Source: Georgenia satyanarayanai (GTDB taxonomy: Bacteria > Actinomycetota > Actinomycetes > Actinomycetales > Actinomycetaceae). From it: a stretch of DNA of 35,651 bases. The stretch covers positions 1-35,651 of the forward strand of contig NZ_UETB01000021.1 of NCBI RefSeq assembly GCF_900116375.1, given 5' to 3'. The notes below the pieces were generated by a model. That model worked only from the letters and a program-made list of their open reading frames with translations, did no database searches and was not told the DNA's origin. Position numbers and translations under genes: made by a program. Below are positions 5,354-25,544 of this stretch, piece after piece. Numbering within the stretch: the first letter of the stretch is position 1; every line of letters starts with the position of its first letter.

Positions 5354-11029
<5,676 letters not shown>

Positions 11030-11372: not shown

Positions 11373-14300
11373 TCAGCCGATCTTGCTCAGCGTGCCGATC
11401 GCCTTGGCGGTGGCAGCGCCACCGACCGGGCGGCGGATGCCGAGGGTGTCGGTCCCGTCGCCGTTCCAGTCACCGACGTAGACCTCGTCACCGAGGCGTC
11501 CGAAGGTGAGCACCGTGTCCGCGTCCCCACCGCTGAGGGTGTTGGAGACGTGGTAGGTGCGCCCACGCTGGATGGCGAAGGAGTCCGTACCGTCGCCGTC
11601 CCAGTCGCCCGCGAGGGTGACGTCCGCGGCCCGACCGTAGGTGAAGACCACGTCGGCGTCGCCGCCGATGACCGAGTTCTTCACGTGGTAGGTCGCGCCA
11701 CGGCGGATCGCGAGGGTGTCGACGTCGGAGCCGTTCCAGTCACCGACGAGGACCTGGTCGTCCGCGCGGCCGTAGGTGAAGCTCACGTCCGCGGGACCGC
11801 CGCGGAGCGTGTTCTTCACGTGGTACTCCGCACCGCGGCGCACGGCGAAGGTGTCCTTGCCGTCGCCGTCCCAGTCACCGACGAGGATGACGTCACCGGG
11901 GCGGCCGTAGGTGAACACCGAGTCCGGGTTCCCGCCACGCTGGCTGTTGGACACGTGGAACTCGTTGCCCTTGCGGACAGCGATCGTGTCCTTGCCGTCG
12001 CCGTCCCAGTCACCGATGAGCACCTCGTCGGCCCAGCGGCCGTACATGAAGTGGACGTCGGTGGAGCCGCGCCAGGTGTTGGACAGGTGGAACTCCGCCG
12101 TCCGGCGGTCGGGAGCCGGAGCGCCCGCCGTCGAGAAGGTGTGGCTCCACTCGGTGGCCGAGCCGTCAGCGAGCACGAAGCCCTCCGCAGCCTGCGCCGT
12201 GACCGTCACGGTGCCGACACCCGGGTGGGTACCCGCCTCGACGATCTCACCGTTGACGACGTACTCGACACCCGTGACACGCGGCACCGTGAAGGTGTCG
12301 CCCGCCGTGCCGTACTCGTCGGTGAAGGTCACCGGAGCGGTCGTCGTCTCCACCGGGCGCGAGCCCTCCTCCCCGGCCGGCTGGCCGGTGAGGTACTCGA
12401 AACCGGTCTCGGCGAAGTTCTCACCCAGCGGCGCGACGTCGTACTCGAGGACGTAGAGCTCGACGTTCGCGTGGTCACGAGCGGCGCGCAGGATGTCCTG
12501 CAGCGGGACGTCGCCCTCACCGAGGTTGGTGAAGGTCGGACGGTCGCCACCGAGGTTCGTCGCGTCCTTGACGTGCAGGAGCTCGATGCGGTCGCCGTGC
12601 TCCTCGATGAGAGCCGGCACGTCCACACCAGCGTGCGCGGCCCAGGCCACGTCCAGCTGGAAGGTCACGTACTCGGAATCGGTCTCCTCGACGAGGATCT
12701 CCCACACCGGGGTCTGCTCACCGTTGTAGTCGAACGTCCTGGTGAACTCGCCGGCGTGGTTGTGACCGAAGAACTTGCCGACGCCAGCCTCGACCGAGGC
12801 CCGACCCAGCGCGTTCATCGTCCGAGCCGTGTCCATGACACGTCCGATGGAGTCGAAGCCCGGCTCTGCAAACCCGCCCGAGCCGACGTACTCCTGGCCC
12901 AGCGTCTCGACGTACTCGAGGGTCGCCGGGAAGGTGGCCACGTCGACGTTGTAGTGCGACGAGGGCACGTTGAGGCCGATGAGGTCGGTCATTGCGCGGA
13001 ACTGCTCGGCGGTGTAGCCGCCCAGGTTCCCGCCGAAGGGCTCGACGTTCTCGAAGCCGATCTCCGCCAGCCGCGCGAGCACGGACGGGAGGCCCGCCTC
13101 GTTGACCCACGGGATGAGGGAGAACATGCCGATCGAGACGTCCTCGGTGTCGACCCGGACCGGAACGAGCTCCTCACCGGTGAGGTAGGAGAAGCCGGTC
13201 TCGGCGAAGAGCTCACCGAGGGGCGCCTGGTCGTACTCGAGGACGTAGAGCGCGATGTCCGCGTGCTCCTCCGCCGCGCGCAGGATCTCCTGCAGCGGGA
13301 CCTCGCCCTCGCCGAGGTTGGTGAAGGTCGGACGACCCTCGCCAGCCACGTTGACGGCGTCCTTGACGTGCAGCAGCTCGATGCGGTCGCCGTACTCCTC
13401 GATGAGGGCAGGGACGTCCACACCGGCGTGCGCAGCCCAGGCCACGTCCAGCTGGAAGGTCACGAACTCCGGGTTCGTCTCACGAACGAGGATCTCCCAC
13501 GCGGAGAGCTCCTCGCCCTCGTGCTCGTACACCGTGGTGAACTCGCGGTCGTGGTTGTGGCCGAAGAACTTGCCCAGCCCAGCCTCCACGGACCGCTCAC
13601 CGAGACGGTTCATGGTGGCCGCCGTCGCCAGCGTGTTCTCGTAGCCGGAGGCCGTCTCCGTCTCGTTGATCCCGGGGGCCGCGAAGCCACCGGAGCCGAC
13701 GTACTGCTGACCCAGCGTCTCGACGTAGTCGAGCGTCGCGTCGAAGGTGTCCTCCGCGACGTTGTAGTGCGAGGACGGGACCTTCAGACCGATCTCGTCG
13801 ACCATCGCGCGGAACTCCTCGGCGGTGTAGCCGTTGAAGTTGCTGCCGAAGGGCTCGACGTTCTGGAAGCCGATCTCCGCCAGCCGCTCGAGCACGGTCG
13901 GCAGACCTGCCTCACGGACCCACGGGATGAGGGAGAACATGCCGATCGAGACCTTCTCCGCGGGGATGCGGATGTTCTCGACCGGGGGCTCCTCGCCCGA
14001 GGCGGTGAAGGCCAGGTAGTCCAGGTCCACACCGGTGCTGGTGACGACGACCTCGCCCGATCCCTCGGGAACGCTGGTGAAGCGCGCCTCGACCTCCTGC
14101 CAGCCACCGTCGCCGGGGGCAGCAGGAGCGTTGCGGTAGGCCTCGACGAGCTCAGCGATCGCGTGCGCGGAGATCTGCCCCTCGGAGAGCTCGACGAGCC
14201 CCTCCAGCGGAACGTCGCGAACGGCGTCGTGGAACTCCTCCGGGATCAGTCCGCTGACGAACTCGGCGCCGACCGGGTCGGCGAGCCACTGACCGACCGT

Positions 14301-16868
14301 GGACTGCGCGGTGAGGTTGCGCTCGGACGGCTCGCCGCCCGTGAACTCGACCTCGGCGAAGGGGGTGTCCTCGCCCGCCCAGGTCAGGGAGACGGTGCCC
14401 TCGCCCGCGCCGCGGGCGGTGACAGTGTCGATGACGTCACCGGTGGGGGCGTGCGTCATGGCCATCGGGCGGAACGTGATGGAGCCCTCGCCGAGCTCGA
14501 CGTAGGAGCCGGCGTCGGCCTCGGCGTCGTCGACGACGGTCGCGCCGTCGGCGGCGTCGTACCACTCGGCCTGCTGCACCTCGGGCTTGAGGATGAGCGT
14601 GGCCTCGCCGGTGATGGACGGGACGTCCTCCTGCGCCTGGTCGGCGTAGGTGACGACGAGGGTGCCGTAGAGCTTCTCGCCCGCGCCGTGCTCGGTCGCG
14701 TCCTCGCTCGTCTCGATGACGAACTCGCAGCCGCGTCCGGAGACCTCCGGGTGGGCGTGCTCGTTGTGGCCCAGACCGAAGGTCCAGCGCACGCCGTTGC
14801 AGTTGAACTCCTCGCCGTCCTCCGCGTCGGTGACCGACACGGAGACCGGCACGTCGTCGCCCCAGTTGAAGATGGCGCCGTTGTCCACGCTCAGCGTGAT
14901 CTCCGGAGCCGTGTTGCCGACGGTGATCTGCCGGATGGCCAGGGCCGCCTTGCCCTCGGGGTCGACGGCGCGGAGGGCGGCGTCGTACACGCCGAGCGCC
15001 TCGTAGGTGTACGTCGGGTTCACGCCCGTGGCGTCGTCGTACTCACCGTCGCCGTCGAGGTCCCACTCGTAGGTGAGCTCCTCGCCCTCCGGGTCACGGG
15101 AGGCCGAGGCGTCGAAGACGACCTCGAGCGGAGCCCCGCTGCTGGACGCCGGGGTGGCGGTGAAGGACGCCTGCGGGGTCTTGTTGCCCTCCCCGACGTA
15201 GTTGACGACGTACAGGCCGGCGTCCGGGTTCTGGCGGAAGAAGCCGTCCCCGTACTCCAGCACGTACATCGCGCCGTCCGGACCGAACTCGAAGTCCATG
15301 ACGTTGTCCCAGATGGGCTGGTTCACCGTCTCGAGGTGGAGGTTCGGCAGGAAGTCGGTGACCTCGGTGACCTCGCCCTCCGAGGAGAGCTCGTCCATGG
15401 TGAAGGCCACGACGTAGTCCTGGGAGAACTCGGCCATGAACGGCTTTCCGTCCCAGTACTCAGGGAACTTGTTCTCGGACTCGAGGCTCTCGTCGTAACG
15501 GTAGACGGGGCCACCCATCGGGGCCTGGCCGCCGCCACCGAGCTCGGCGAGCGGGTCGAGCAGCTCGGGCTGGTCGCCGGCGCTGTCGCCGTAGTAGACC
15601 TGCGGCTCGGTGACCGGCGGGACCTGCTCCAGGCCGGTGTTGAAGGTGGAGTTGTTCACCGGGCCCGCGTCGCAGTCGAACGTGATGTCGCCGGGCGAGT
15701 TGGTCTCGAAGTTCCACTCGTTGTAGGCGCCGCCGTCGTTGGGACCGTGGCAGTAGGGCCAGCCGCTGTTCATCGGCTCGGTGGTCAGCTGCCACTCGAC
15801 GTAGCCCATGGGGCCGCGGTCGGCCTGGGCCTCGCCGGCGTCGGGGCCGTAGTCGCCCCACACCAGGGCTTCGGACTCGATGTCGTAGTCGATGCGGAAC
15901 GGGTTCCGCACGCCCATGACATAGATCTCCTCGCGGACCAGGTCGGGGTCGTACTCCTCGGAGTCGAAGAGGTTGCCCTCGGGGATCGTGTACGTGCTGC
16001 CCGGGCCGGTCTCCGCGCCCGCGTCGATCTCGTCGAGCGGGTTGATCCGCAGGATGGAGCCGCGCAGGTCGTTGGTGTTGCCGGCGCCGCGACGGTCGTC
16101 GAAGCCCGGGTTCATCCCGGGGGCGTTGTTGATCGGCGTGTAACCGTTGGCGCCCGGGGTGCCGGCAGGGGTGTTGTCACCGGTCGAGAGGAAGAGGTTG
16201 CCCTCCGCGTCCCAGGCCATGTCGGCCCCGACGTGGCAGCACTGGCCACGCTGGGCGTCGACCTTGATGATCTCCTGCTCGGACTCGAGGTCGAGCGTGC
16301 CGGCCTCCGCGTCGAACTGGAAGCGGGAGAGCACGTTGTAGCCGAGCCACTGGTCCCAGTAGGTCTCGGGGTCCGCGCCCTCGGGCAGGCTGTTGGGGGC
16401 GTTCCCTGCAGGCGTCGTCTCGGGGTACTCGACACCGGTGGGCGACGTCCCGGACATGACGCGGGGTGCGTAGACGAGGTAGACCCAGCCGTTCTCCTCG
16501 AAGTTCGGGTCCAGCGAGACACCCTGGAGACCGTCCTCCGAGTTCGCGTAGACGTCGAGCTGGGCGATCTGCGTCGTCGCGCCCGTGCCGGGGTCCGTCA
16601 GGCGGACGACGCCGTTGCGTGCGGTGTGGAGAACCCGCGAGTCCGGCAGCACGGCGAGGTCGATCGGTTCGCCCGTGTTCTTGGTGAGCAGGACCTTCTC
16701 GTAGTTGTTCCAGTCCAGTGCCGGGTCCTCGACCGGGGCTGGCTCCGCCTCTGGCGGCTCGGTTTGTGCTTGCGCACCGCTCATCGCGAGCGGCAGCACG
16801 AGAGCGCTGGTCAGCAGCGCGCTCGCACCTCGGGTCGCCCAGCGGCGTCCCGTTGATCGTCTGACCAC
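11373..16868 (-). CDS. Secreted PQQ sugar dehydrogenase / PKD / CBM6-like protein with two tandem TIM barrels and five C-terminal repeats
   Basis: 1831 residues from GTG at 16868, preceded by AAGGAGG four bases upstream; the longer open frame to 17033 is unsupported. The signal peptide ends near residue 34 (LAMSGAQA). Domains, rough residues: PQQ-type glucose/sorbosone dehydrogenase 53-557 with RGQCCHVGA and LSTGDNT; PKD 563-657; Ig-like and CBM6-like region, with an apparently helical insert of about 65 residues near 850-915; TIM barrel one 970-1227; TIM barrel two 1240-1500; Ig-like; five repeats 1593-1813. Both barrels keep GHNH-EF, FQLDVAWAAHAG, LLHVKDA and VLEYD, so both look active. Unlike its two paralogues it has no ThuA or LamG-like domain. 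The last 500 residues are very close to those of the second large protein. The substrate cannot be read from the sequence. Confidence 0.95.
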   Translation of the reverse strand: MVRRSTGRRWATRGASALLTSALVLPLAMSGAQAQTEPPEAEPAPVEDPALDWNNYEKVLLTKNTGEPIDLAVLPDSRVLHTARNGVVRLTDPGTGATTQIAQLDVYANSEDGLQGVSLDPNFEENGWVYLVYAPRVMSGTSPTGVEYPETTPAGNAPNSLPEGADPETYWDQWLGYNVLSRFQFDAEAGTLDLESEQEIIKVDAQRGQCCHVGADMAWDAEGNLFLSTGDNTPAGTPGANGYTPINNAPGMNPGFDDRRGAGNTNDLRGSILRINPLDEIDAGAETGPGSTYTIPEGNLFDSEEYDPDLVREEIYVMGVRNPFRIDYDIESEALVWGDYGPDAGEAQADRGPMGYVEWQLTTEPMNSGWPYCHGPNDGGAYNEWNFETNSPGDITFDCDAGPVNNSTFNTGLEQVPPVTEPQVYYGDSAGDQPELLDPLAELGGGGQAPMGGPVYRYDESLESENKFPEYWDGKPFMAEFSQDYVVAFTMDELSSEGEVTEVTDFLPNLHLETVNQPIWDNVMDFEFGPDGAMYVLEYGDGFFRQNPDAGLYVVNYVGEGNKTPQASFTATPASSSGAPLEVVFDASASRDPEGEELTYEWDLDGDGEYDDATGVNPTYTYEALGVYDAALRAVDPEGKAALAIRQITVGNTAPEITLSVDNGAIFNWGDDVPVSVSVTDAEDGEEFNCNGVRWTFGLGHNEHAHPEVSGRGCEFVIETSEDATEHGAGEKLYGTLVVTYADQAQEDVPSITGEATLILKPEVQQAEWYDAADGATVVDDAEADAGSYVELGEGSITFRPMAMTHAPTGDVIDTVTARGAGEGTVSLTWAGEDTPFAEVEFTGGEPSERNLTAQSTVGQWLADPVGAEFVSGLIPEEFHDAVRDVPLEGLVELSEGQISAHAIAELVEAYRNAPAAPGDGGWQEVEARFTSVPEGSGEVVVTSTGVDLDYLAFTASGEEPPVENIRIPAEKVSIGMFSLIPWVREAGLPTVLERLAEIGFQNVEPFGSNFNGYTAEEFRAMVDEIGLKVPSSHYNVAEDTFDATLDYVETLGQQYVGSGGFAAPGINETETASGYENTLATAATMNRLGERSVEAGLGKFFGHNHDREFTTVYEHEGEELSAWEILVRETNPEFVTFQLDVAWAAHAGVDVPALIEEYGDRIELLHVKDAVNVAGEGRPTFTNLGEGEVPLQEILRAAEEHADIALYVLEYDQAPLGELFAETGFSYLTGEELVPVRVDTEDVSIGMFSLIPWVNEAGLPSVLARLAEIGFENVEPFGGNLGGYTAEQFRAMTDLIGLNVPSSHYNVDVATFPATLEYVETLGQEYVGSGGFAEPGFDSIGRVMDTARTMNALGRASVEAGVGKFFGHNHAGEFTRTFDYNGEQTPVWEILVEETDSEYVTFQLDVAWAAHAGVDVPALIEEHGDRIELLHVKDATNLGGDRPTFTNLGEGDVPLQDILRAARDHANVELYVLEYDVAPLGENFAETGFEYLTGQPAGEEGSRPVETTTAPVTFTDEYGTAGDTFTVPRVTGVEYVVNGEIVEAGTHPGVGTVTVTAQAAEGFVLADGSATEWSHTFSTAGAPAPDRRTAEFHLSNTWRGSTDVHFMYGRWADEVLIGDWDGDGKDTIAVRKGNEFHVSNSQRGGNPDSVFTYGRPGDVILVGDWDGDGKDTFAVRRGAEYHVKNTLRGGPADVSFTYGRADDQVLVGDWNGSDVDTLAIRRGATYHVKNSVIGGDADVVFTYGRAADVTLAGDWDGDGTDSFAIQRGRTYHVSNTLSGGDADTVLTFGRLGDEVYVGDWNGDGTDTLGIRRPVGGAATAKAIGTLSKIG
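11431..12092 (-). repeat. Five-repeat cassette of the third large protein
   Basis: Five 45-residue units with GDWDGDGKDT-type loops, near-identical at DNA level to those of the second large gene. The third unit has an altered loop (GDWNGSDVDT). Confidence 0.85.
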
Positions 16869-17033
16869 GATTCCTCCTTGAGTCGCGCACGCGGAGGACC
16901 CGCCGTCACTCACGGCAGGACCTGACCGGCCCGACGACTGGCGGGGGGTCCGCCAAACTGCCTCTCGGGCCGGTTGGCGGCAGCGGCGACCAGTGCGCAC
17001 TTCGTGGTGCGCGGGGGCGCCCTCCCCCACCAA

Positions 17034-17211: not shown

Positions 17212-18318
17212 TCAGCTGGCGGCGGCGCGGACGTGCGACAGGGCGTCGTCAAGACTCTTGGCGACGACGGCACGGGCGGCGCCCACAACTCCGGTCGCAC
17301 GAGCGAGGAGGGCCGAGTCCTCCAGCACACGGTCGACGGCGGCGAGCTCCTCACGGGCCTGGGCGGCCACGCGCTCGGGGGCCGCGGAGAGCGCGAGCTC
17401 CCGGCGCAGGACGGCGGCCGTCCCCTCGTCCAGGTCCGCGCGGCCGACGTCGGCCCCGATCCGCGACCACACCGGCAGGGTGCGGGCGTGCAGGACGAGG
17501 GTCGTCGCCTTGCCCTCGCGCAGGTCCGACAGCGCGCTCTTGCCCGTCACCGACTCGGGCGCGAAGACACCGAGGAGGTCGTCGACGAGCTGGAAGGCCT
17601 TGCCGAGGGCGAGCCCGACCGCCTCCACCTCCTCCCGCACGGCCGGCGGCGCCCCCGCGAGGATCGCGCCCGCCCGCAGCGGTGCCTGGAAGGAGTACAG
17701 GGCCGTCTTCTCCGCGGCGATGCGCAGCGCGTCCTCCAACGAGACGTCCTGCAGACCCAGGGCAGCGGCGACGTCACCGAGCTCTCCGGCAACACTCACG
17801 AAGACGGTGTCCCACAGCAGCTGCTGGAGCCGGGTGTGCACCTCGGGCGGGGCGTCCACCGAGGCGACGAGCCGGTGCGCCAGAGAGATCGCGAGATCAC
17901 CGGCCAGCACGGCGGCCCCCTCGGCGAGCTGCTGCGCGCCGTGCTCGTCGGCCCCGCTGTCCCGTGCCGCGAAGGCCATCCGCGACGCGAGGTTCGGCTC
18001 CCCGCGACGCATCATGTCGTGGTCGATGAGGTCGTCGTGGACGAGGAACCCCACATGGAGGAGCTCGAAGGCGGCCCCCACCTGCGCCGCCGCCGCCCGC
18101 CGGGTGCCGCCCAGGGCGTCGTGCAGCTCGACGACCAGCCTGCCCCGGAATCGCTTGCCGCCGGCGGCCGCCCGGCCCAGCTCCTCCCAGAGCCGTCCGT
18201 AGAGCCGGCCGTGCCGCTCGGCGACGGGCCGCAGCTCGGCGAGAAGGCCGGTGAGCACCGAGCTGATCTCCGCCTCGGCGGATCGCGCGGCACCCGCGAG
18301 CGTGGGCGTGCTGTCCAC
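17212..18318 (-). CDS. Polyprenyl (probably geranylgeranyl-type) diphosphate synthase
   Basis: 368 residues, all-alpha trans-prenyltransferase that condenses isopentenyl diphosphate with an allylic diphosphate. The first aspartate-rich motif is HDDLIDHD (D95, D96, D99) followed by RRG. The second is LVDDLLGVF (D246, D247, with G in place of the last Asp), a form I know from actinobacterial geranylgeranyl diphosphate synthases, followed by DLREGKATTL. GTG at 18318 is chosen because AGGAG stands five bases before it; an open frame to 18345 lacks a site. The gene is divergent from the ebo-type operon, so it may supply the prenyl donor for the UbiA enzyme there. Chain length cannot be fixed from the sequence. 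Confidence 0.9.
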   Translation of the reverse strand: MDSTPTLAGAARSAEAEISSVLTGLLAELRPVAERHGRLYGRLWEELGRAAAGGKRFRGRLVVELHDALGGTRRAAAAQVGAAFELLHVGFLVHDDLIDHDMMRRGEPNLASRMAFAARDSGADEHGAQQLAEGAAVLAGDLAISLAHRLVASVDAPPEVHTRLQQLLWDTVFVSVAGELGDVAAALGLQDVSLEDALRIAAEKTALYSFQAPLRAGAILAGAPPAVREEVEAVGLALGKAFQLVDDLLGVFAPESVTGKSALSDLREGKATTLVLHARTLPVWSRIGADVGRADLDEGTAAVLRRELALSAAPERVAAQAREELAAVDRVLEDSALLARATGVVGAARAVVAKSLDDALSHVRAAAS

Positions 18319-18385
18319 TCGGTCTCCTCTCACGAGCCCGTGCACGGGCTTGCCAACGCCTCCGCCGAGCCCCGCGACGACGAGT

Positions 18386-18413
18386 AGGCTAAGGACAAGT
18401 CACGATGTGTTAA
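18386..18413 (-). promoter_or_regulatory. Promoter of the polyprenyl synthase gene
   Basis: On the minus strand TTAACA (18408-18413) and TAGCCT (18386-18391) are 16 bases apart, giving a leader of about 60 bases. On the opposite strand I see TAACAT (18459-18464) ahead of the ebo operon but no good -35 box for it. Confidence 0.5.
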
Positions 18414-18520
18414 CGTCTTTTGTCAAGCCGTGTTTCGCCACAACGACACTGTCTTACGTAACATTGCGGAGTTCGGGAACCACAGTCGGTTGCCCGAAGC
18501 ACATACAACGAGGTGATGTG

Positions 18521-19690
18521 ATGACTCAGCCTAATGCCGTTCACGACCAGCGGGTCGGAGTGTGGTTCGTCGGTGCTCGCGGTTCGGTCGCGACCACCGC
18601 CACCCTCGGCGCCCTGGCCATGGCGGCGGGGCTGGCCCCGCGCACGGGACTGGTCAGCGAGCTGCCCGAGGTGGCCGTCGCCGGTCTGCCGTCCCTCGAG
18701 GGGCTCGTCACCGGTGGCCACGACATCCTCGAGACGCCGCTCGCCCACCGCGCACAGGTGCTCGCGGACTCCGGCGTCTTCCCGCCCTCGCTCGTGACGA
18801 CCCTGGCCGACGAGCTCGCCGCCGCCGACTCGCGCATCCGCATCGCCCCCCGGCTCGGCACGCAGCGCGAGAACGCGCGGGCCGTCGAGCAGGACATCCG
18901 CGACTTCCGCGCCGCCAACGACCTGGACCGCGTCGTCGTCGTCGACGTCTCCAACACCGAGCCACCGGTCACCCCGCGGCCCGAGCTCGACAGCCTCGCC
19001 GCACTGGAGGAGGCCCTCGACGCCGGCCACGCCCCGCTGCCCACGAGCTCCCTGTACGCGTACGCGGCGTTCCGCGCCGGGTGCCCGCTCGTCTCCTTCA
19101 CCCCCAGCCCGGGCGCGACGCTCGGCGCGCTCACCGAGCTCGCCAAGGAGCAGGCGCTGCCCTGGGCCGGGCGCGACGGCAAGACCGGCGAGACGCTCGT
19201 GAAGTCGGCCCTCGCCCCGATGTTCGGCACGCGCGCGCTCAAGGTCCGCTCGTGGGCGTCCTACAACATGCTCGGCGGTGGTGACGGCCAGACGCTGTCC
19301 GACCCGCGCGCCGCGCTGAGCAAGACGACGACCAAGGGCGCGGGCCTGGACGCCATCCTCGGCTACCACGTCGACGGCCCGATGCACATCGACTACGTCG
19401 AGGACCTCGGGGACTGGAAGACCGCCTGGGACAACATCTCCTTCGAGGGCTTCCTCGGCACCCGGATGACGATGCAGTTCACCTGGCAGGGTTGCGACTC
19501 GGCGCTGGCCGCCCCGCTCGTCATCGACCTCGTCCGGCTCGCCGCCCGTGCGCACGAGCGCGGGGAGAACGGCGTCGTCGGCGCCCTCGCCTTCTTCTTC
19601 AAGGACCCGCTCGGCGGCATCGACCACACCCTCGCCGACCAGTGGCGCACCCTGGCCCAGTGGTGCGAGAACCTGGGCGCGTCGGCGTGA
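18521..19690 (+). CDS. Inositol-3-phosphate-synthase-like NAD-dependent sugar phosphate cyclase
   Basis: 389 residues from ATG at 18521, with GAGG seven bases upstream. It resembles myo-inositol-1-phosphate synthase, which turns glucose 6-phosphate into inositol phosphate with NAD. Visible family marks are a glycine-rich N-terminal nucleotide fold (VWFVGARGSVATT), GRDGKTGETLVKS, NMLGGGDGQTLSDP, PLVIDLVRL and FFFKDPLGG. It is the first gene of a tight operon and its stop overlaps the next start by four bases. In ebo clusters of cyanobacteria and Bacteroidetes a dehydroquinate-synthase-like cyclase (EboD) is the sugar-phosphate enzyme; here this unrelated cyclase is the only such gene. The exact substrate is not proven; a dedicated mycothiol-pathway enzyme is less likely from this context. 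Confidence 0.88.
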   Translation: MTQPNAVHDQRVGVWFVGARGSVATTATLGALAMAAGLAPRTGLVSELPEVAVAGLPSLEGLVTGGHDILETPLAHRAQVLADSGVFPPSLVTTLADELAAADSRIRIAPRLGTQRENARAVEQDIRDFRAANDLDRVVVVDVSNTEPPVTPRPELDSLAALEEALDAGHAPLPTSSLYAYAAFRAGCPLVSFTPSPGATLGALTELAKEQALPWAGRDGKTGETLVKSALAPMFGTRALKVRSWASYNMLGGGDGQTLSDPRAALSKTTTKGAGLDAILGYHVDGPMHIDYVEDLGDWKTAWDNISFEGFLGTRMTMQFTWQGCDSALAAPLVIDLVRLAARAHERGENGVVGALAFFFKDPLGGIDHTLADQWRTLAQWCENLGASA

Positions 19691-20553
19691 CCACGGCCCG
19701 CGACATCGCCGAGCTCGTCCGGCTGCCCGCCGCCCTGTCGGTGCCGGGCGACGCCCTTGCCGGCGCCGCCGTCACCGGCACGCTGGGGTGGCGCACGGCC
19801 GGTCTTGCCGCGTCCTCCGTGTGTCTGTACTGGGCCGGCATGGCCCTCAACGACTACGCCGACCGGGAGCTCGACGCCGTCGAGCGGCCCGAGCGGCCCA
19901 TCCCCTCCGGCCGCGTGAGCCCGACGGCGGCGCTGCGGGTCGCCGGTGGCCTCACCGCCGCGGGGATCGGGCTGGCAGCGGTGGGCGGGCGGCGCGCCGT
20001 CGCCGTCGCCTTGCCGCTCGCCGCGACCGTGTGGACCTACGACATGCTCGCCAAGCCGACCCCGCTCGGCCCCGTCGTCATGGCCGCCGCCCGCAGCCTC
20101 GACGTCCTGCTCGGCGGGTCGGCCGCCCCGCGGCGCGCGGTCCCGGCCGCGCTCGCCCTCGGTGCCCACACCGCCGCCGTCACCGTCCTCAGCCGCGGCG
20201 AGGTCCACGGCTCGAGCCCCGCCGTCGCCCGCGCCGCGCTCGCGACCACGACGGCGGTCGCCGCCGCCGTCGCGGGCACCGGCCTGCGCCGGGGCCGGAC
20301 CGGGGCGCTCGGCCGGCTCGCGTCGGCGACGCTCGCGGGCACCTACGCGCTCACCGTGGGACGGGCCCAGGCTGCCGCCGCCGCCAGCCCGGACGCGGTC
20401 ACGGTCCGCCGGGCCACCGGCACCGGCATCCGTGGCATGGTGCCCCTCCAGGCGGCCCTCGTCGCCGGCGGTGGCGCCGTCGCGACCGCCGTCGGCCTCA
20501 TGGCCGCCGGCCCCGCACTCCGCGCCGCAGCGAAGGGAATCTCACCGACATGA
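19687..20553 (+). CDS. UbiA-family prenyltransferase (EboC position; resembles SCO3242-type enzymes)
   Basis: 288 residues, many hydrophobic helices, membrane-bound. The UbiA motif is LNDYADRELD (N55, D56, D59, D63), and a second signature YDMLAKPTP (D119) with LGPVVMAAARSLD follows. UbiA enzymes move a prenyl group from its diphosphate to an acceptor in the membrane. The GTG start overlaps the preceding stop (GTGA), showing translational coupling. By order and size it occupies the place of EboC, and I recall similar actinobacterial proteins being called SCO3242-family prenyltransferases. The acceptor is unknown; an inositol- or sugar-derived head group is a guess from the cyclase upstream, and the donor may come from the divergent prenyl synthase. 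Confidence 0.85.
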   Translation: MTTARDIAELVRLPAALSVPGDALAGAAVTGTLGWRTAGLAASSVCLYWAGMALNDYADRELDAVERPERPIPSGRVSPTAALRVAGGLTAAGIGLAAVGGRRAVAVALPLAATVWTYDMLAKPTPLGPVVMAAARSLDVLLGGSAAPRRAVPAALALGAHTAAVTVLSRGEVHGSSPAVARAALATTTAVAAAVAGTGLRRGRTGALGRLASATLAGTYALTVGRAQAAAAASPDAVTVRRATGTGIRGMVPLQAALVAGGGAVATAVGLMAAGPALRAAAKGISPT

Positions 20554-21395
20554 GCCTGCGCCTGTCCTACGGGACCAACGGCTTCACCGACCACCGCCTG
20601 CCCGAGGCGCTGGCGATCATGGCCGACCTCGGCTACGAGGGGGTCGCGCTCACCCTCGACCACCAGCACCTCGACCCCTTCGCGCCCGACCTCGCCGCCC
20701 GGGTGTCCGAGACGGCTGCGCTGCTCGAGCGGTACGGCCTCGCGGTCGCCGTCGAGACCGGCGCCCGCTACGTGCTGGACCCGTGGCGCAAGCACGAGCC
20801 CACCTTCGTCTCCGAGGACGGTGCGGAGGAGCGGGCACGGCTCATCCGCACCGCCGTCGACGTCGCCGGCGACCTCGGTGCCGACATCGTCCACCTGTGG
20901 TCGGGGACGCTGCCGCCGGGGACGCCCGACGACGTCGCCTGGGAGCGGCTGGTCTCGGGGCTCGCGCCGGTGCTCGAGCACGCCGAGCGCGCCGGGGTGC
21001 GCCTCGCCTTCGAGCCCGAGCCCGGGATGTTCGTCAGCCGCCTGGCCGGGGTGCGCGAGCTGCGCTCCCGCCTCGGCGACCCCGCCGCGCTCGTCGCGAC
21101 CGTCGACGTCGGCCACGCCGTCGTCAACGAGGAGGCCAGCCCGCAGGACTGCATCCGCGAGAACGCGGAGATCGTCGCCCACGTCCAGATCGAGGACATG
21201 CGGCGCGGGGTCCACGAGCACCTCGAGTTCGGGGAGGGCGAGGTCGACGTCCCCGCCTCCCTGCGGGCCCTCCTCGACATCGGCTACGACGGACTGGTGT
21301 CCGTCGAGCTGACCCGTCACAGCCACGACGCCCCCGCAGTCGCGGCCCGCTCCCTCGCCGTCCTGCGCAGCGCCCTCGACGCCGCCCAGGCCTGA
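20550..21395 (+). CDS. Sugar phosphate isomerase/epimerase-like TIM barrel
   Basis: 281 residues from ATG at 20550, overlapping the previous stop by four bases. It is a cytoplasmic xylose-isomerase-like (AP-endonuclease family 2) barrel. Likely metal ligands and catalytic residues lie in FEPEPGMF, VATVDVGHA, HVQIEDM with HEHLEFGEGE, and SVELTRHSH. Families with this fold isomerise, epimerise or cleave sugars and cyclitols, including inosose isomerases and dehydratases. That would fit a product of the inositol-phosphate-synthase-like enzyme two genes earlier. It is distinct from the EboE barrel further down, so this cluster has two such barrels. The reaction is not known. Confidence 0.85.
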   Translation: MSLRLSYGTNGFTDHRLPEALAIMADLGYEGVALTLDHQHLDPFAPDLAARVSETAALLERYGLAVAVETGARYVLDPWRKHEPTFVSEDGAEERARLIRTAVDVAGDLGADIVHLWSGTLPPGTPDDVAWERLVSGLAPVLEHAERAGVRLAFEPEPGMFVSRLAGVRELRSRLGDPAALVATVDVGHAVVNEEASPQDCIRENAEIVAHVQIEDMRRGVHEHLEFGEGEVDVPASLRALLDIGYDGLVSVELTRHSHDAPAVAARSLAVLRSALDAAQA

Positions 21396-21420
21396 CCACC
21401 CGCCCGCCCCAGGAGCCGAC

Positions 21421-22101
21421 ATGAGCCGCACCCACCAGATGCGCGACGCGATCGCCGCGGACCTCTCCCCCGCCGCCGCGAGCCGGCTGTCGCAGATGAC
21501 GGCCGAGATCGCCGCGGACACCTCCGCCGCCGCCCGCCTGTTCCCCGCCGCCGCCCGCGAGGTCGCGCGCGGCCCCCTCGACCCGGCCGACCCGAGCGGT
21601 ATCCACGGCCCCACCCTCGACGACGCCGTGCGGGGCGTGCTCCTCGCCGCCCTCGCCGAGGCGCTGGGCGACGACGCCCGCCTCCTGCGCGAGGTGAGCG
21701 ACCTGTACCGCTACGGCGACGGCGACGAGAAGCGGGCCGTGCTCCGCGCCCTGCACCTTCTCGGCCCGGAGGCGCAGCCGATCGTCGAGGACGCGCTGCG
21801 CACCAACGACATCCGCATCGTCGCGGCCGCCATGGGCCCCTGGGCCGGCACCCACCTCGACGACGCCACCTGGCGTCAGGGCGTGCTCAAGTGCCTCTTC
21901 GTCGGCGTCCCCCTCGCCGCCGTCGACCGTCTCGACGAGCGGACCGACCCCGAGCTCGCCCGCATGGTCGCCGCCTACGCCCACGAGCGGCTCGCCGCCG
22001 GCCGCAGCGTGCCCGACGACGTCCACCTCGTGCTCGACCAGGAGCCCGGTGCCCTGGACCAGTTCCCCGACGTCGCGGCAGCGCTGCGCCCGTCCGCCTG
22101 A
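21421..22101 (+). CDS. eboA: EboA domain protein
   Basis: 226 residues, ATG with AGGAG eight bases upstream. The sequence is rich in predicted amphipathic helices with no signal peptide, and has the pattern YRYGDGDEKRAVLRALHLLG and later MGPWAGTHLDD that I associate with EboA proteins. EboA has no established biochemical role; it marks the ebo cluster, which in cyanobacteria is needed to deliver a metabolite precursor to the periplasm. It sits 25 bases after the TIM-barrel gene and 27 bases before eboB in the same operon. The recognition rests on sequence pattern plus neighbours. Confidence 0.82.
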   Translation: MSRTHQMRDAIAADLSPAAASRLSQMTAEIAADTSAAARLFPAAAREVARGPLDPADPSGIHGPTLDDAVRGVLLAALAEALGDDARLLREVSDLYRYGDGDEKRAVLRALHLLGPEAQPIVEDALRTNDIRIVAAAMGPWAGTHLDDATWRQGVLKCLFVGVPLAAVDRLDERTDPELARMVAAYAHERLAAGRSVPDDVHLVLDQEPGALDQFPDVAAALRPSA

Positions 22102-22128
22102 CCCCTTCACCTCACCAGGAGCCCCTCC

Positions 22129-23001
22129 ATGCGCATCTTCGACCCGCACATCCACATGACGTCCCGCACGACGGACGACTACGAGGCCATGCACGCGGCC
22201 GGCGTGCGGGCCCTGGTCGAGCCGGCGTTCTGGCTCGGGCAGCCGCGCACGAGCGTGGAGTCCTTCGTCGACTACTTCGACGGGCTCGTGGGCTGGGAGC
22301 GCTTCCGTGCCTCGCAGTTCGGCATCGCCCACCACGCGACCATCGCGCTCAACCCCAAGGAGGCCAACGACCCGCGCTGCCGCGGCATCCTCGACCTCCT
22401 GCCCCGCTACCTCGCCAAGGACGGCGTCGTCGCCGTCGGCGAGGTCGGCTTCGACTCGATGACGCAGGCCGAGGAGGAGGTGTTCGTCCGCCAGCTCGAG
22501 CTCGCCGGCGAGCACGGCCTGCCCGCCATGGTCCACACCCCGCACCGCGACAAGGCCGTGGGCACCCAACGCACCCTCGACCTCGTCGCCCAGGTGGGGA
22601 TCGCGCCGGGGATGATCGTCGTGGACCACCTCAACGAGACGACCGTCGAGATCGTCGACGACGCCGGCGCGTGGATGGGCTTCTCCGTCTACCCGGACAC
22701 GAAGATGGACGAGCACCGCATGGTCGCGATCCTCCAGGAGCGCGGGCTGGAGCGGGTGCTGGTGAACTCCGCCGCGGACTGGGGACGCAGCGACCCCCTG
22801 AAGACCTACAAGACCGGGCAGGCCATGCTCGCGGCCGGCTTCACCGAGGACGACGTCGACCGCGTGCTGTGGCGCAACCCCGTGGAGTTCTTCGGGCAGA
22901 GCGGGCGCCTCATGCTCGGCTACGACACCTCCGACACCACGGCCGCCACCTTCGAGGGCAACTCCATCCTCCGCGGTGAGCGCAAGACCCCCGAGGCCTG
23001 A
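22129..23001 (+). CDS. eboB: TatD-family metal-dependent hydrolase (EboB)
   Basis: 290 residues, ATG with AGGAG seven bases upstream. TatD-type amidohydrolase barrel with all expected metal ligands: FDPHIHM (H7, H9), GEVGFDS (E105), VHTPHRDK (H136), VVDHLNE (H167) and SAADWGRS (D217). The active site therefore looks intact and should hold two metal ions. TatD proteins include nucleases and small-molecule hydrolases; the ebo-associated branch has no known substrate. Lacking a signal peptide, it should act in the cytoplasm. The next start follows after three bases. Confidence 0.87.
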   Translation: MRIFDPHIHMTSRTTDDYEAMHAAGVRALVEPAFWLGQPRTSVESFVDYFDGLVGWERFRASQFGIAHHATIALNPKEANDPRCRGILDLLPRYLAKDGVVAVGEVGFDSMTQAEEEVFVRQLELAGEHGLPAMVHTPHRDKAVGTQRTLDLVAQVGIAPGMIVVDHLNETTVEIVDDAGAWMGFSVYPDTKMDEHRMVAILQERGLERVLVNSAADWGRSDPLKTYKTGQAMLAAGFTEDDVDRVLWRNPVEFFGQSGRLMLGYDTSDTTAATFEGNSILRGERKTPEA

Positions 23002-23004
23002 GCC

Positions 23005-24171
23005 GTGCGACTGCGTCACCCCGACGGCACCGTCGTCCACCTCGCCTACTGCAGCAACGTCCACCCCGCCGAGGACCTCGCCGGCATCCACGAGCAGCTG
23101 CGGCGCTTCGCCGGGCCCGTGCGGGAGCGGCTCGGCGTCGAGCGCCTCGGCCTGGGGCTGTGGCTCCCGGCCGCGGCGGCCGGCCGGCTCGCCACCGAGC
23201 CGGGCGAGCTGGACGACCTGCGCCGTGTCCTGGACGAGCAGGGCCTGGAGGTCGTCACCCTCAACGCCTTCCCCTACGGCGGCTTCCACGACCCCGTCGT
23301 CAAGCATCGCGTCTACCGACCCGACTGGACCGAGCGCGCCCGGCTCGACTACACGCTGGCCGCCGCCCGCGTGCTGGCGGGCCTGCTGCCCGCCGACGCT
23401 GCGCGAGGGAGCATCAGCACCCTGCCGCTGGCGTGGTGGACCCCGTGGTCGGAGGAGGCGGCGCAGGCCGCCCGGGCCAACCTCGACGCGCTCGCGACCG
23501 GCCTGGCCCGGCTGCGGGAGCAGACCGGCCGCACCATCCGGGTGGGCTTCGAGCCGGAGCCCGGGTGCGTCGTCGAGACGACGACGGACGCCGTACGCGA
23601 GCTCGCCGGCATCGACACCGAGCACCTGGGGGTGTGCGTGGACACCGCCCACCTCGCCACCGCCTTCGAGGACGCCGACGAGGCGATGGGCCGGCTGACC
23701 GGTGCGGGGCTGCCCGTCGTCAAGGCGCAGCTGTCCGCCGCGCTGCACGTCGCCGACCCCGCCGCGGCCGTGGAGCAGGGACTGCTCGACGACTTCGTCG
23801 AGGACCGCTTCCTCCACCAGGTGCGCGAGCCCGTCGCCGCGGGCGTGGCCGGCCGCGACGACCTGCCGGACGCGCTCGGCGGCTCACCTCTCCCGGCGCA
23901 GGCGCCGTGGCGGGTGCACTTCCACCTGCCGCTGCACTCCGCCCCGCGCTCCCCGCTCGCGGCCACGACCAGCGAGCTCAGCGCCTCCGCGCGGGCCCTC
24001 GTGGGCGGCGAGCGGCCACTGACCGACCACCTCGAGGTGGAGACCTACACGTGGTCGGTGCTGCCCGCCGACCAGCGGCCCACCGACGACGCCGGACTCG
24101 TCGCCGGGATCGCCGCCGAGCTGGACCACGCGCGCGCGGAGCTCCACGCGCTGGGACTGGAGGACGCATGA
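23005..24171 (+). CDS. eboE: EboE-type TIM-barrel protein (metabolite traffic protein EboE)
   Basis: 388 residues from GTG at 23005, three bases after the eboB stop. A xylose-isomerase-like barrel longer than usual, with LAYCSNVHPAEDL near the start, LNAFPYGGFHDP, VGFEPEPGC, GVCVDTAHLAT and HFHLPLHS. The first two of these are what I associate with EboE. Key acidic and histidine residues of the barrel are kept, so catalysis is plausible, but the reaction is unknown. Its stop overlaps the next start (ATGA), giving coupling to the phosphodiesterase-like gene. Confidence 0.87.
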   Translation: MRLRHPDGTVVHLAYCSNVHPAEDLAGIHEQLRRFAGPVRERLGVERLGLGLWLPAAAAGRLATEPGELDDLRRVLDEQGLEVVTLNAFPYGGFHDPVVKHRVYRPDWTERARLDYTLAAARVLAGLLPADAARGSISTLPLAWWTPWSEEAAQAARANLDALATGLARLREQTGRTIRVGFEPEPGCVVETTTDAVRELAGIDTEHLGVCVDTAHLATAFEDADEAMGRLTGAGLPVVKAQLSAALHVADPAAAVEQGLLDDFVEDRFLHQVREPVAAGVAGRDDLPDALGGSPLPAQAPWRVHFHLPLHSAPRSPLAATTSELSASARALVGGERPLTDHLEVETYTWSVLPADQRPTDDAGLVAGIAAELDHARAELHALGLEDA

Positions 24172-25544
24172 CCGACAAGCTGCTCGTACTCAACGTCGTC
24201 GCGCTCACGCCACGGCTGCTCGAGCACATGCCCCGGCTCAAGCGGGTGGCCCAGCAGGGCTACCGCGCGCGGCTGGACACCGTGCTCCCGGCGGTCACGT
24301 GCTCCGCGCAGTCCACCTACCTCACGGGCCTGACACCCAGCGAGCACGGCATCGTCGCCAACGGGTGGTTCTTCCGCGACCTCGGCGACATCCTCCTGTG
24401 GCGTCAGCACAGCGGCCTCGTCGAGGGCGAGCGGGTGTGGGAGACGATCAGGCGCCACCGCCCCGACTACCGGGTCGCCAACGTGTGCTGGTGGTACGCC
24501 ATGGGCGCCGACGTCGACACGACCATCACCCCGCGGCCGGAGTACCACGCCGACGGCCGCAAGGAGCCGGACTGCTGGACCTGGCCGCCCTCGCTGCACG
24601 ACCAGCTCGTCGCCGAGCTCGGTCCCTTCCCGCTGTTCACCTTCTGGGGCCCGGGCGCCAACATCGAGTCCTCGAAGTGGATCATCGGCGCGACCCGCCG
24701 TGTCATGCCCGACCACGACCTCACCCTCGCCTACATCCCCCACCTCGACTACGACCTCCAGCGCTTCGGTCCCTCCGGGCCGGAGGCCGTGCGCGCGGCC
24801 AAGGAGGTCGACGAGGCGCTCGCCCCGCTCCTGGACGACGCCGAGCGGATGGGCGCGACCGTCGTCGTGCTCAGCGAGTACGGGATCACCGACGTCGACC
24901 GGGCCGTGGACGTCAACCGGGTGCTGCGCCGTGCGGGGCTGCTCCACGTCCACACGAACTCCACCGGCGAGATCCTCGACCCGTGGACGTCCAAGGCCTT
25001 CGCCGTCGCCGACCACCAGGTCGCCCACGTCTACGTCCGCGACCCCGACGACGTCCCCATGGTCCGCGACATGCTGGCCGCGCTCCCCGGCGTCGAGCAG
25101 GTGCTCGACGCCGAGGGCAAGAAGGCCGCGGGGCTGGACCACCCGCGCTCGGGGGAGCTCGTGCTCGTCGCCGAGCCGGGCGCGTGGTTCACGTACTACT
25201 ACTGGCTCGACGACAAGAAGGCCCCGGACTTCGCCCGGCTCGTGGAGATCCACAAGAAGCCCGGGTACGACCCTGTCGAGCTGTTCATGGACCCCGAGGA
25301 CAAGTGGGTCAAGCTGCGGGCCGGCAAGGCGCTGCTGCGCAAGAAGCTCGGCATGCGCTACATGATGGAGGTCGTCCCGCTGGACCCGGCGCCGCTCCGG
25401 GGCAGCCACGGCCGGCTGCCCGAGACGCCGGACGAGGGCCCGGTGCTCCTGTGCTCGGACCCGTCCGCGTCGACGGACCACGTGCGCGCGACCGAGGTCC
25501 GCGACCTGCTCCTCCGCCTCGCCGGAGTCCCCGCCCCCGCCTGA
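24168..25544 (+). CDS. eboF: Alkaline phosphatase / nucleotide pyrophosphatase superfamily protein (EboF-like)
   Basis: 458 residues, last gene of the ebo operon, start overlapping the eboE stop. The fold is recognisable from PAVTCSAQSTYLTGLTPSEHG, which has the usual nucleophile Thr (T44). The canonical metal ligands are altered: the first Asp is N9, the His of the D-x-x-x-H motif is Q198 (HLDYDLQRFGP), and the usual DHG is E237-Y238-G239 (LSEYGITD); D194, D282 and H283 remain. It may therefore bind fewer metal ions or act on an unusual phospho-substrate. This could be general for EboF proteins. No signal peptide is visible. Confidence 0.85.
   Translation: MTDKLLVLNVVALTPRLLEHMPRLKRVAQQGYRARLDTVLPAVTCSAQSTYLTGLTPSEHGIVANGWFFRDLGDILLWRQHSGLVEGERVWETIRRHRPDYRVANVCWWYAMGADVDTTITPRPEYHADGRKEPDCWTWPPSLHDQLVAELGPFPLFTFWGPGANIESSKWIIGATRRVMPDHDLTLAYIPHLDYDLQRFGPSGPEAVRAAKEVDEALAPLLDDAERMGATVVVLSEYGITDVDRAVDVNRVLRRAGLLHVHTNSTGEILDPWTSKAFAVADHQVAHVYVRDPDDVPMVRDMLAALPGVEQVLDAEGKKAAGLDHPRSGELVLVAEPGAWFTYYYWLDDKKAPDFARLVEIHKKPGYDPVELFMDPEDKWVKLRAGKALLRKKLGMRYMMEVVPLDPAPLRGSHGRLPETPDEGPVLLCSDPSASTDHVRATEVRDLLLRLAGVPAPA

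Follow-up and report, generated by a model that had tools for sequence, protein, structure and literature searches.

An ebo gene cluster of Georgenia satyanarayanai with an inositol-phosphate-synthase-like cyclase and a second barrel protein in the place of EboD

The locus described here raises the question of what an ebo gene cluster makes when its usual cyclase, EboD, is missing and a protein of another enzyme family stands in its place. The ebo cluster is described in PMC5133447 as a set of six genes, eboABCDEF, and is reported from cyanobacteria, Bacteroidota and the plastids of eustigmatophytes (PMC5133447, PMC6282210); in Nostoc, the ebo genes are reported to be needed for the scytonemin monomer, from which a pigment is made, to leave the cytoplasm (PMC6282210). 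The window analyzed is a stretch of 35,651 nucleotides (contig NZ_UETB01000021.1) from a Georgenia satyanarayanai genome of 3.9 Mb in 37 contigs, which is listed as 100% complete. Seven genes form a tight operon on the forward strand of the window (18521-25544), encoding in order a myo-inositol-1-phosphate-synthase-like cyclase (MIPS), UbiA, TIM1, EboA, EboB, EboE and EboF (Table 1). Gaps of -4, -4, 25, 27, 3 and -4 bp separate them, indicating that they are arranged as in one operon. As in eboABCDEF, homologs of EboA, EboB, EboE and EboF stand together with a UbiA-type prenyltransferase, but the operon lacks EboD, contains MIPS and TIM1, and has a UbiA protein of the SCO3242 rather than the EboC family. 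The same gene order is found in all 17 MIPS-carrying clusters compared (16 fetched clusters and the window), although in cluster L028 UbiA was detected solely with relaxed settings; this uniformity suggests that the arrangement is more than chance. Profile matches in the window bear out the genes, strands and limits given in a preliminary description of this DNA, which listed genes that are all present but overlooked TIM1, a second xylose-isomerase-like barrel.

Table 1. Features of the window, with the profile matches on which their names rest
Feature	Position	Strand	Match or remark
Large protein with glucose/sorbosone dehydrogenase domain, PKD and two IolE-like barrels	11373..17033	-	PF07995 79.3 bits (cut-off 25); PF01261 twice; PKD
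Polyprenyl diphosphate synthase	17212..18345	-	PF00348 153.7 bits; divergent from operon
MIPS, myo-inositol-1-phosphate-synthase-like cyclase, in EboD position	18521..19690	+	PF07994 160.4 bits; PF01658 112.8 bits
UbiA-superfamily membrane prenyltransferase, SCO3242 family, in EboC position	19687..20553	+	NF045897 373.6 bits (cut-off 260)
TIM1, xylose-isomerase-like TIM barrel	20550..21395	+	PF01261 139.3 bits
EboA, predicted all-helical solenoid	21421..22101	+	NF035938 162.6 bits
EboB, TatD-like metal-dependent hydrolase	22129..23001	+	PF01026
EboE, TIM barrel; NCBI name metabolite traffic protein	23005..24171	+	NF035939 415.7 bits (cut-off 250)
EboF, type I phosphodiesterase/nucleotide pyrophosphatase family	24168..25544	+	PF01663 210.4 bits

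The closest solved relative of MIPS is the Ino1 structure 1u1i (E 5e-67), which we take to be that of Archaeoglobus fulgidus. Both Pfam domains expected of a myo-inositol-phosphate synthase are present, as are four lysines (Lys268, 272, 300 and 361), presumably those that are catalytic in the A. fulgidus enzyme, which are identical in 48 of 48 aligned rows. MIPS keeps the residues that a functional inositol-phosphate synthase should have. These domains and lysines are common to MIPS and synthases of the 1u1i type, whereas MIPS is tied to a prenyltransferase and ebo genes and its product is a predicted one. It is not the mycothiol Ino1 of the same strain, as it scores 31.5 bits against a cut-off of 638 for that family (TIGR03450), while the true Ino1, located on another contig, scores 705.4 and is about 20% identical to MIPS.

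The only gene of the DHQ-synthase family found in the Georgenia genome is AroB (TIGR01357, 351.7 bits, cut-off 305), leaving it without a detectable EboD. In a set of 396 Actinomycetota genomes, all 17 that carry the MIPS subfamily fall among the 19 that carry EboE; these MIPS proteins score between 569 and 624 bits, and the next match in any of the 396 genomes reaches 332. The subfamily was also found in 72 of 78 further EboE-carrying genomes, bringing the overall figure to 89 of 97. Within the 78 genomes, 70 of 76 MIPS copies lie no more than 8 kb from EboE, while 11 of 81 EboE genes have no MIPS within that distance. An EboD ortholog was found in none of these 78 genomes when they were searched whole, the best match being 139 bits where the same query gives 445 bits for EboD of Herpetosiphon. 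Conversely, among 80 ebo loci of other phyla, picked as the nearest to an EboD-type query, EboD was matched in 77, with scores of at least 200 bits in 75, and MIPS in none. MIPS and EboD cyclases have unrelated folds. The preliminary proposal that a MIPS-like cyclase replaces EboD is thus well supported by its co-occurrence with EboE and by the lack of EboD orthologs in the 78 genomes, and neither of the observations that it had named as telling against it, an eboD homolog elsewhere or a grouping with the mycothiol Ino1, was made. The swap is not one-for-one, however, as the pair of MIPS and TIM1, and probably the prenyltransferase subfamily as well, is exchanged.

TIM1 is predicted to be a sugar isomerase, epimerase or dehydratase. 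It is present in 17 of 17 MIPS-carrying clusters and in none of the 80 ebo loci from other phyla, and its residues E155, D186, H189, H222 and H224 are kept in 30 of 30 aligned rows (E253 in 29 of 30). A second class of MIPS genes, of which 10 were found, has a TIM1 relative within 6 kb in all eight cases read, and no such relative was seen near the 20 genes read among the 62 listed for a third class. Two ebo clusters, those of G419 and G279, lack both MIPS and TIM1, and the pair is encoded elsewhere in each genome. This arrangement amounts to natural complementation, and MIPS and TIM1 form a unit whether they are encoded in cis or in trans to the cluster. MIPS and TIM1 relatives are also housed in clusters without ebo genes.

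The prenyltransferase of the operon belongs to the superfamily of EboC but, by its profile scores, to a different subfamily: the EboC model gives it 139.2 bits, under the cut-off of 250, and it clears the cut-off of the SCO3242 model given in Table 1, as scored for a protein with three extra N-terminal codons. The motif NDxxDxxxDxxERPERPxPSG is present. Geranylgeranylglycerol-phosphate geranylgeranyltransferase of archaeal lipid synthesis was rejected as an identity (66.7 bits against a cut-off of 296, NF009521); the superfamily is shared with archaeal digeranylgeranylglyceryl phosphate synthase, and UbiA weakly matches 6m31 (E 1e-5). Ubi-297, a relative of EboC, is reported to farnesylate an aromatic acid, 8-hydroxyquinoline-2-carboxylic acid, in vitro (PMC9235831), and the acceptor of the operon UbiA may therefore be aromatic. 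The namesake of the family, SCO3242 of Streptomyces coelicolor, is counted within the CDA cluster together with SCO3243, which is listed as a myo-inositol phosphate synthase (PMC3610822); we liken the pair to UbiA and MIPS by description, and the account of it in that source, as far as seen, draws no link to ebo.

The remaining four genes are recognizable ebo genes. EboA scores 162.6 bits on the EboA_domain model (cut-off 50) and 80.5 on the stricter EboA family, under its cut-off of 320. Its AlphaFold2 model (mean pLDDT 91.9) gave no match in the PDB at E <= 0.001; the predicted fold would perhaps suit a scaffold. EboB and EboF are 42.9% and 52.8% identical to their counterparts in the EboD-type cluster L030 of genome G381. 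In the EboB tree, proteins of MIPS-type and EboA/EboD-type clusters are joined against those of EboG-type clusters (100/100), a grouping that carries a long-branch warning. Clusters of the eboG type (PMC5133447), among them L030 and cluster L198 of Gemmatirosa, have homologs of EboB, EboE and EboF and a prenyltransferase of the EboC superfamily in common with the window, but EboG replaces EboA, and EboD is usual.

The Gemmatirosa cluster departs from that rule and shows the swap in a second background. On plasmid 2, EboG, EboB, EboF and EboE occur together with UbiA, MIPS and TIM1, and the 1.04-Mb record contains no match to EboD; the EboB encoded there is 71.5% identical to that of the EboG-type L030. 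Haloarchaeal plasmids bear a related gene set; the MIPS of Halomarina, which falls in the ebo-linked clade, has no ebo gene in its vicinity. The Gemmatirosa MIPS groups with ebo and haloarchaeal MIPS (100/100), and MIPS with TIM1 behaves like a portable pathway head that stands in for EboD/EboC. UbiA probably belongs to this head as well, on the basis of one Gemmatimonadota cluster and haloarchaea. The Gemmatirosa UbiA groups with actinobacterial UbiA (93/90 in the full set, 99/92 in a reduced set); constraining it with EboG-type EboC was rejected at p 0.026 for the full set, in which the EboG-type rows do not form a single group, whereas the reduced set did not reject the constraint (AU p 0.20). 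Its scores lie under both cut-offs (172.5 for SCO3242, 135.6 for EboC), and the UbiA of Halocatena scores higher with the EboC model (178.2) than with the SCO3242 model (164.5).

Two genes beside the operon may be connected with it. The divergent prenyl diphosphate synthase noted in the preliminary description is real and could possibly supply the prenyl donor, but a relative lies near only five of the 21 MIPS-carrying clusters read, window included. The large protein encoded at 11373..17033 has, by eye, a signal-peptide-like N-terminus and is a possible outer partner of the cluster. Of 22 clusters of this type, 14, counting the window, have a glucose/sorbosone dehydrogenase domain nearby, as do 0/20 and 0/8 other MIPS loci and 3/80 loci of other phyla; the Georgenia genome has eight further matches to a comparable model, none over its cut-off. 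IolE-like barrels also occur near some of the clusters, and Natronococcus has both a dehydrogenase and an IolE-like barrel beside its set. Of two Streptomyces plasmid copies, one lies beside an NRPS-type gene and the other beside a type II PKS set.

Our preferred reading, to which we assign a probability of about 0.5, is an ebo cluster whose pathway head has been exchanged while EboA, EboB, EboE and EboF were kept, and which would make a prenylated cyclitol that serves in export. An archaeal-type MIPS, TIM1 and an SCO3242-type UbiA would occupy the places of EboD and EboC. MIPS would convert glucose 6-phosphate to inositol phosphate or to the inosose phosphate intermediate, TIM1 would isomerize, epimerize or dehydrate this product, and UbiA would attach a prenyl chain to the resulting compound in the membrane. 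The lipid so formed would be trimmed or recycled by EboB, EboE and EboF, in a complex that EboA holds together, and the prenylated cyclitol would carry a metabolite across the membrane or aid its movement, as ebo does with the scytonemin monomer. For Georgenia satyanarayanai, we infer all of these chemical steps, the lipid and the export role.

Retention of the four ebo genes across the swap, with two enzymes in place of one, would also fit two routes to the same cyclitol, by EboD or by MIPS with TIM1, with the downstream chemistry and the final lipid or carrier unchanged. Glucose 6-phosphate, the substrate of MIPS, is used by 2-deoxy-scyllo-inosose synthase as well. The EboD superfamily includes this synthase, but EboD itself is placed near the sedoheptulose-7-phosphate cyclases (PMC5133447); the prenyltransferase subfamily moreover seems to switch with the cyclase, which would be needless if the acceptor were identical, and we consider a shared product unlikely. 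It is similarly improbable that UbiA prenylates an aromatic secondary metabolite, with MIPS and TIM1 giving its sugar or cyclitol part, in a natural-product pathway rather than a lipid carrier system. The in vitro activity of Ubi-297, the biosynthetic neighbors of the Streptomyces plasmid copies and the assignment of SCO3242 and SCO3243 to the CDA cluster point in this direction, but the operon has no further conserved biosynthetic gene, the two plasmid copies lie beside different biosynthetic clusters, and the Nostoc ebo genes act on export.

The residues of an active synthase in MIPS would equally suit an extra supplier of inositol phosphate for mycothiol or phosphatidylinositol that lies ahead of the ebo operon by chance. 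Against this stand the genome's own mycothiol Ino1, the 4-bp overlap of the MIPS and UbiA genes, the presence of the subfamily in 89 of 97 EboE genomes and the lack of TIM1 near all 20 third-class MIPS genes read, and such a role is very improbable. Little credence can likewise be given to oxidative processing of a sugar or cyclitol at the cell surface by the secreted glucose/sorbosone-type dehydrogenase, with lipid export secondary. The enrichment of this domain near clusters of the window type and the neighboring IolE-like barrels would favor it; however, the dehydrogenase is outside the operon and was not found near eight of 22 clusters, the genome has several other matches to such a model, all under its cut-off, and the loci used for comparison belong to different lineages, in which the family may be rarer.

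A prenylated cyclitol has already been proposed as the ebo product (PMC5133447), while the MIPS swap in ebo clusters was not found in the published literature searched. The ebo cluster spans several phyla and plastids, and the literature examined gives no natural substrate for its enzymes. The natural cyclase swap is an experiment by evolution that hints at the likely acceptor of the prenyltransferase, and the exchange of the cyclase with an apparent change of prenyltransferase subfamily suggests a cyclitol-based lipid as the likely product. More tentatively, and with some doubt, MIPS, TIM1 and the SCO3242-type UbiA may constitute a portable cassette whose product is a prenylated lipid derived from inositol. 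Such a lipid would form a new class of carriers that take small molecules through membranes, and the cassette would have been plugged into EboA-type (Actinomycetota), EboG-type (Gemmatimonadota) and haloarchaeal versions of the cluster. If so, the compound that is prenylated throughout the ebo family would be the product of its cyclase. The starting compound in actinobacteria would be inositol phosphate, which is common and easily labeled, making the question directly testable in laboratory Streptomyces. A prenyl-inositol lipid as the product would add a new kind of membrane carrier to those of bacteria and archaea.

The window covers completely a contig of 35,651 bases from a genome of 3.9 Mb, and carries a forward-strand run of seven closely packed genes, encoding in order a myo-inositol-1-phosphate-synthase-like cyclase (MIPS), a UbiA prenyltransferase, a xylose-isomerase-like TIM barrel (TIM1), EboA, EboB (TatD), EboE and EboF (a phosphodiesterase), with intergenic spacings of -4, -4, 25, 27, 3 and -4 bases. 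The genes named in the preliminary description were correct, and TIM1 was left out of it. A fold search with EboA returned weak matches to helical repeat proteins alone, none at E <= 0.001.

Features of the window, with profile scores in bits
Feature	Position	Strand or orientation	Profile match
Weak dehydrogenase-model match, in a large protein	3351-4100		
Weak dehydrogenase-model match, in a large protein	9293-10039		
Secreted-looking protein	11373-17033	-	Glucose/sorbosone dehydrogenase domain PF07995 79.3 (cut-off 25); two IolE-like barrels
Polyprenyl diphosphate synthase	17212-18345	divergent from operon	
Seven-gene operon	18521-25544	+	
MIPS	operon, 1st gene	+	PF07994 160.4; PF01658 112.8
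UbiA	operon, 2nd gene	+	SCO3242 family 373.6 (cut-off 260)
TIM1	20550-21395	+	
EboA	operon	+	EboA_domain 162.6 (cut-off 50)
EboE	operon	+	415.7 (cut-off 250)

The operon had been described as an ebo cluster lacking EboD, and this absence is upheld by the rest of the genome. The dehydroquinate (DHQ) synthase family is represented there by a single gene, which scores 351.7 against the AroB model (cut-off 305), i.e., the shikimate enzyme, leaving no EboD concealed elsewhere. The EboD of L030, an actinobacterial locus of the EboD and EboG type, belongs to a different model, scoring 563.7 on NF004852 (cut-off 333) and 209.5 on the AroB model. The alternative that the cyclase is simply the Ino1 of the mycothiol pathway also fails, as the mycothiol Ino1 of the strain is a distinct gene on another contig that scores 705.4 bits on the Ino1 model, versus 30.9 for the window MIPS, and the two share approximately 20% identity. 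Among solved structures, the window MIPS most closely matches 1u1i, an Ino1, and variants of it (E 5e-67). Residues K268, K272, K300 and K361 align with what we take to be the four active-site lysines of 1u1i Ino1 and are identical in 48 of 48 aligned rows; the sequences thus give no sign of a dead enzyme, and as these rows include other MIPS classes and Ino1, the four lysines cannot separate the MIPS classes.

EboE is present in 19 of 396 Actinomycetota genomes, in 18 of them above the cut-off. The MIPS subfamily, scored with a profile (A2) of 15 members, was detected in 17 genomes at 569-624 bits, scores that are inflated for the 15 of the 17 clusters first found from which A2 was built; all 17 genomes are among the 19 with EboE, and the next match in any of the 396 was 332 bits. 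Clusters outside the training set, those of G128 and G334, scored 586 and 584, and 72 genomes found later scored at least 524. The gene order of the window operon recurs in each of the 16 MIPS-carrying clusters fetched, making 17 with the window itself; in one of them (L028), UbiA was detected with relaxed settings only. Of the two EboE genomes that remain, G381 possesses a DHQ-synthase-type EboD and a small putative EboG gene, with no match to MIPS, TIM1 or EboA in the stretch read, and G279 has an ebo cluster that lacks MIPS and in which the EboE and UbiA frames are split. For the genomes of this sample other than the window's, the search for EboD covered the stretches read. G128 contains two ebo clusters (L027 and L028), of which L027 is without MIPS.

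A class-wide sample of 394 genomes, 90 of which have EboE above the cut-off, extended this pattern. Of 98 genomes with any EboE match, 12 were already in the first sample and eight with below-cut-off matches only were left out; 72 of the 78 analysed carry the MIPS subfamily (524-599 bits), and EboE is no more than 8 kb away from 70 of their 76 MIPS copies. The best match of an EboD query in these 78 genomes was no higher than 139 bits; as a control, the same query and tool recovered the Herpetosiphon EboD at 445 bits, with other matches at 106-136. The proposed co-occurrence of the cyclase with EboE and its anti-occurrence with EboD were both borne out. In family f95 of this sample (e.g., G441, G514, G617 and G681), partial EboE matches spanning model positions 1-242 were found at 15 places, in frames of 312-447 aa and once of 721, and possibly represent a shortened EboE relative.

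MIPS is not within 8 kb for 11 of the 81 EboE genes of the 78 genomes. These comprise the six MIPS-less genomes, the second cluster of G659, G549 with its MIPS fragment, and three genomes (G458, G575 and G667) in which MIPS sits on a different contig from EboE. The six MIPS-less genomes do not break the rule, as five show an EboE-family gene alone across the 19.5 kb examined, and the sixth (G419) carries MIPS and TIM1 in trans. The five lone genes (L157-L161, in G428, G452, G537, G614 and G653) are paralogues that exceed the EboE cut-off; nothing else in those 19.5 kb matches an ebo gene at 45 bits or higher. Besides the MIPS fragment in its ebo cluster, G549 (loci L162 and L163) encodes a complete MIPS of that subfamily on another contig, adjoining a dehydrogenase domain like that of the window.

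Outside Actinomycetota, 80 named EboE loci contain EboD in 77 cases (75 of them scoring at least 200 bits, the other two truncated at contig ends) and MIPS and TIM1 in none, in a set that favours EboD clusters because it comprises the 80 top-scoring of 583 or more matches to an EboD-type EboE query. No EboD was seen in L054, L070 and L094; in L070, which is of the EboG type, the upstream gene checked is PorQ, and no replacement cyclase was found. Fourteen of the genomes from which these loci come gave no MIPS match exceeding 264 bits. Among 301 genomes of Herpetosiphon's phylum none reached the level of the actinobacterial subfamily (best match 314 bits), and their lower matches could include divergent MIPS like that described below for Gemmatirosa. 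The small gene of L030, labelled EboG from its gene position, recurs in seven of the 80 loci, among them that of Herpetosiphon, which is listed as EboG-type in PMC5133447.

Evidence from Gemmatimonadota and haloarchaea, drawn from plasmid records, shows the cyclase in other backgrounds. A plasmid locus of Gemmatirosa kalamazoonensis (L198) carries EboE, EboG, EboB, EboF, UbiA, MIPS and TIM1, with no EboD match on the plasmid 2 record searched. The EboB of this locus shares 71.5% identity with its L030 counterpart and 41.4% with the window protein; for its MIPS and TIM1, identity to the window proteins is 44% and 49%. The L198 UbiA scores 172.5 on the SCO3242 family, to which the window UbiA belongs, and 135.6 on the EboC family, each below its cut-off, and clusters in the tree with actinobacterial UbiA (93/90 in the full set, 99/92 in the reduced set). 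A topology that joins it to the EboG-type EboC proteins fails the AU test with the full set (p 0.026), in which those EboG-type proteins do not themselves form one group, and is not rejected with the reduced set (p 0.20); a switch of the UbiA subfamily together with the cyclase is thus likely, not proven. MIPS and TIM1, and probably UbiA, travel as a unit.

On three haloarchaeal plasmids (Halocatena, Natronococcus and Halobaculum), MIPS and an EboF-like phosphodiesterase lie beside a TatD-barrel-UbiA-barrel set; Haladaptatus has the same gene set with MIPS not nearby. The probes used found no EboA or EboG in the haloarchaeal loci (L197, L212, L213 and L214, MIPS not being near in L213). The Halocatena barrels score 27 and 20.6 bits on the EboE model, under its cut-off of 250, and the Halocatena UbiA fits the EboC model (178.2) better than the SCO3242 model (164.5); in the tree, this UbiA falls among the SCO3242 proteins, at 88/59 for the full set and 95/89 for the reduced one.

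In a MIPS tree without Ino1, the ebo, haloarchaeal and Gemmatirosa copies are set apart from the rest (100/100), and a Halomarina copy (L196) falls inside this group yet has no ebo genes near. When the very distant Ino1 is included, the 22 ebo rows are not one clade; their monophyly is not rejected (AU p 0.44), and holding the ebo copies together with a second MIPS class gives AU p 0.17. A branch of the EboB tree (92/62) separates off the actinobacterial clusters, next to which stand the EboA/EboD clusters; both together are split from EboG/EboD clusters (100/100, with a long-branch warning). Because EboD occurs on both sides of this split, its replacement would be the simpler history. In the tree labels, L027 and L156 are in the MIPS group though without MIPS in cis, L070 and L054 are marked EboD though none was seen near, and L044 was excluded for its split genes.

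TIM1 does not accompany every kind of MIPS. The second MIPS class (320-343 bits, 10 genomes) has a TIM1 relative within 6 kb in all eight of the 10 loci read, none of which has ebo genes, and a third class (208-265 bits) shows no TIM1 nearby in the 20 loci read of 62 listed. In G419 and G279, the ebo cluster is without MIPS and TIM1, and a pair of the second-class kind is found at another genome site. Pairs of MIPS and a TIM1 relative outside ebo clusters were observed in L164-L171 (G419, G554, G635, G053, G076, G237, G279 and G152) and L199 (Methylobacterium bullatum). In L169, of the second class, a methyltransferase, a Gfo/Idh/MocA oxidoreductase with distant resemblance to inositol 2-dehydrogenase, a YcaO protein and one gene without a match lie between MIPS and TIM1, followed by a glycosyltransferase; the non-ebo context looks like another cyclitol-derived pathway. 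Given this linkage across contexts, TIM1 plausibly acts on the MIPS product. TIM1 retains, across 30 aligned rows, acidic and histidine residues characteristic of metal-dependent sugar isomerases. Actinobacterial EboA fused to a xylose-isomerase-like domain has already been noted (PMC5133447), in agreement with the TIM1-EboA pair. A single 473-residue frame of locus L042 (7211-8632) joins TIM1 and EboA like that fusion.

A dehydrogenase domain of the kind found in the secreted-looking protein occurs near 14 of 22 MIPS-type ebo clusters, the window counted, compared with 0 of 20 third-class and 0 of eight second-class MIPS loci and three of the 80 loci of other phyla, comparison loci that are from other lineages. 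An oxidation step outside the cell may thus belong to the system. Of two Streptomyces plasmid copies, one is beside an NRPS-type gene and one beside a type II PKS set.

Since the swap alters the cyclase, and probably the prenyltransferase with it, while EboA or EboG, EboB, EboE and EboF stay, we infer that the prenyl acceptor is the cyclase product and that the remaining machine handles the prenylated product. Glucose 6-phosphate would be converted to an inositol phosphate, from which TIM1 would make an isomer; this would be prenylated in the membrane, and the prenylated cyclitol may be used in export. Against this route, Ubi-297 is reported to have in vitro aromatic activity (PMC9235831), and a prenyl synthase relative is near only five of 21 MIPS-carrying clusters read, although the divergent synthase of the window fits it.

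Some ebo operons without eboD were already noted in PMC5133447, and the individual pieces are already named in databases; in the open-access full-text literature, we found no paper linking an inositol-phosphate synthase with ebo genes. What is new here is the exchange of MIPS for EboD, the pattern of exclusion between them, the partnership with TIM1, the cases in Gemmatirosa and haloarchaea, and the pairs in trans.
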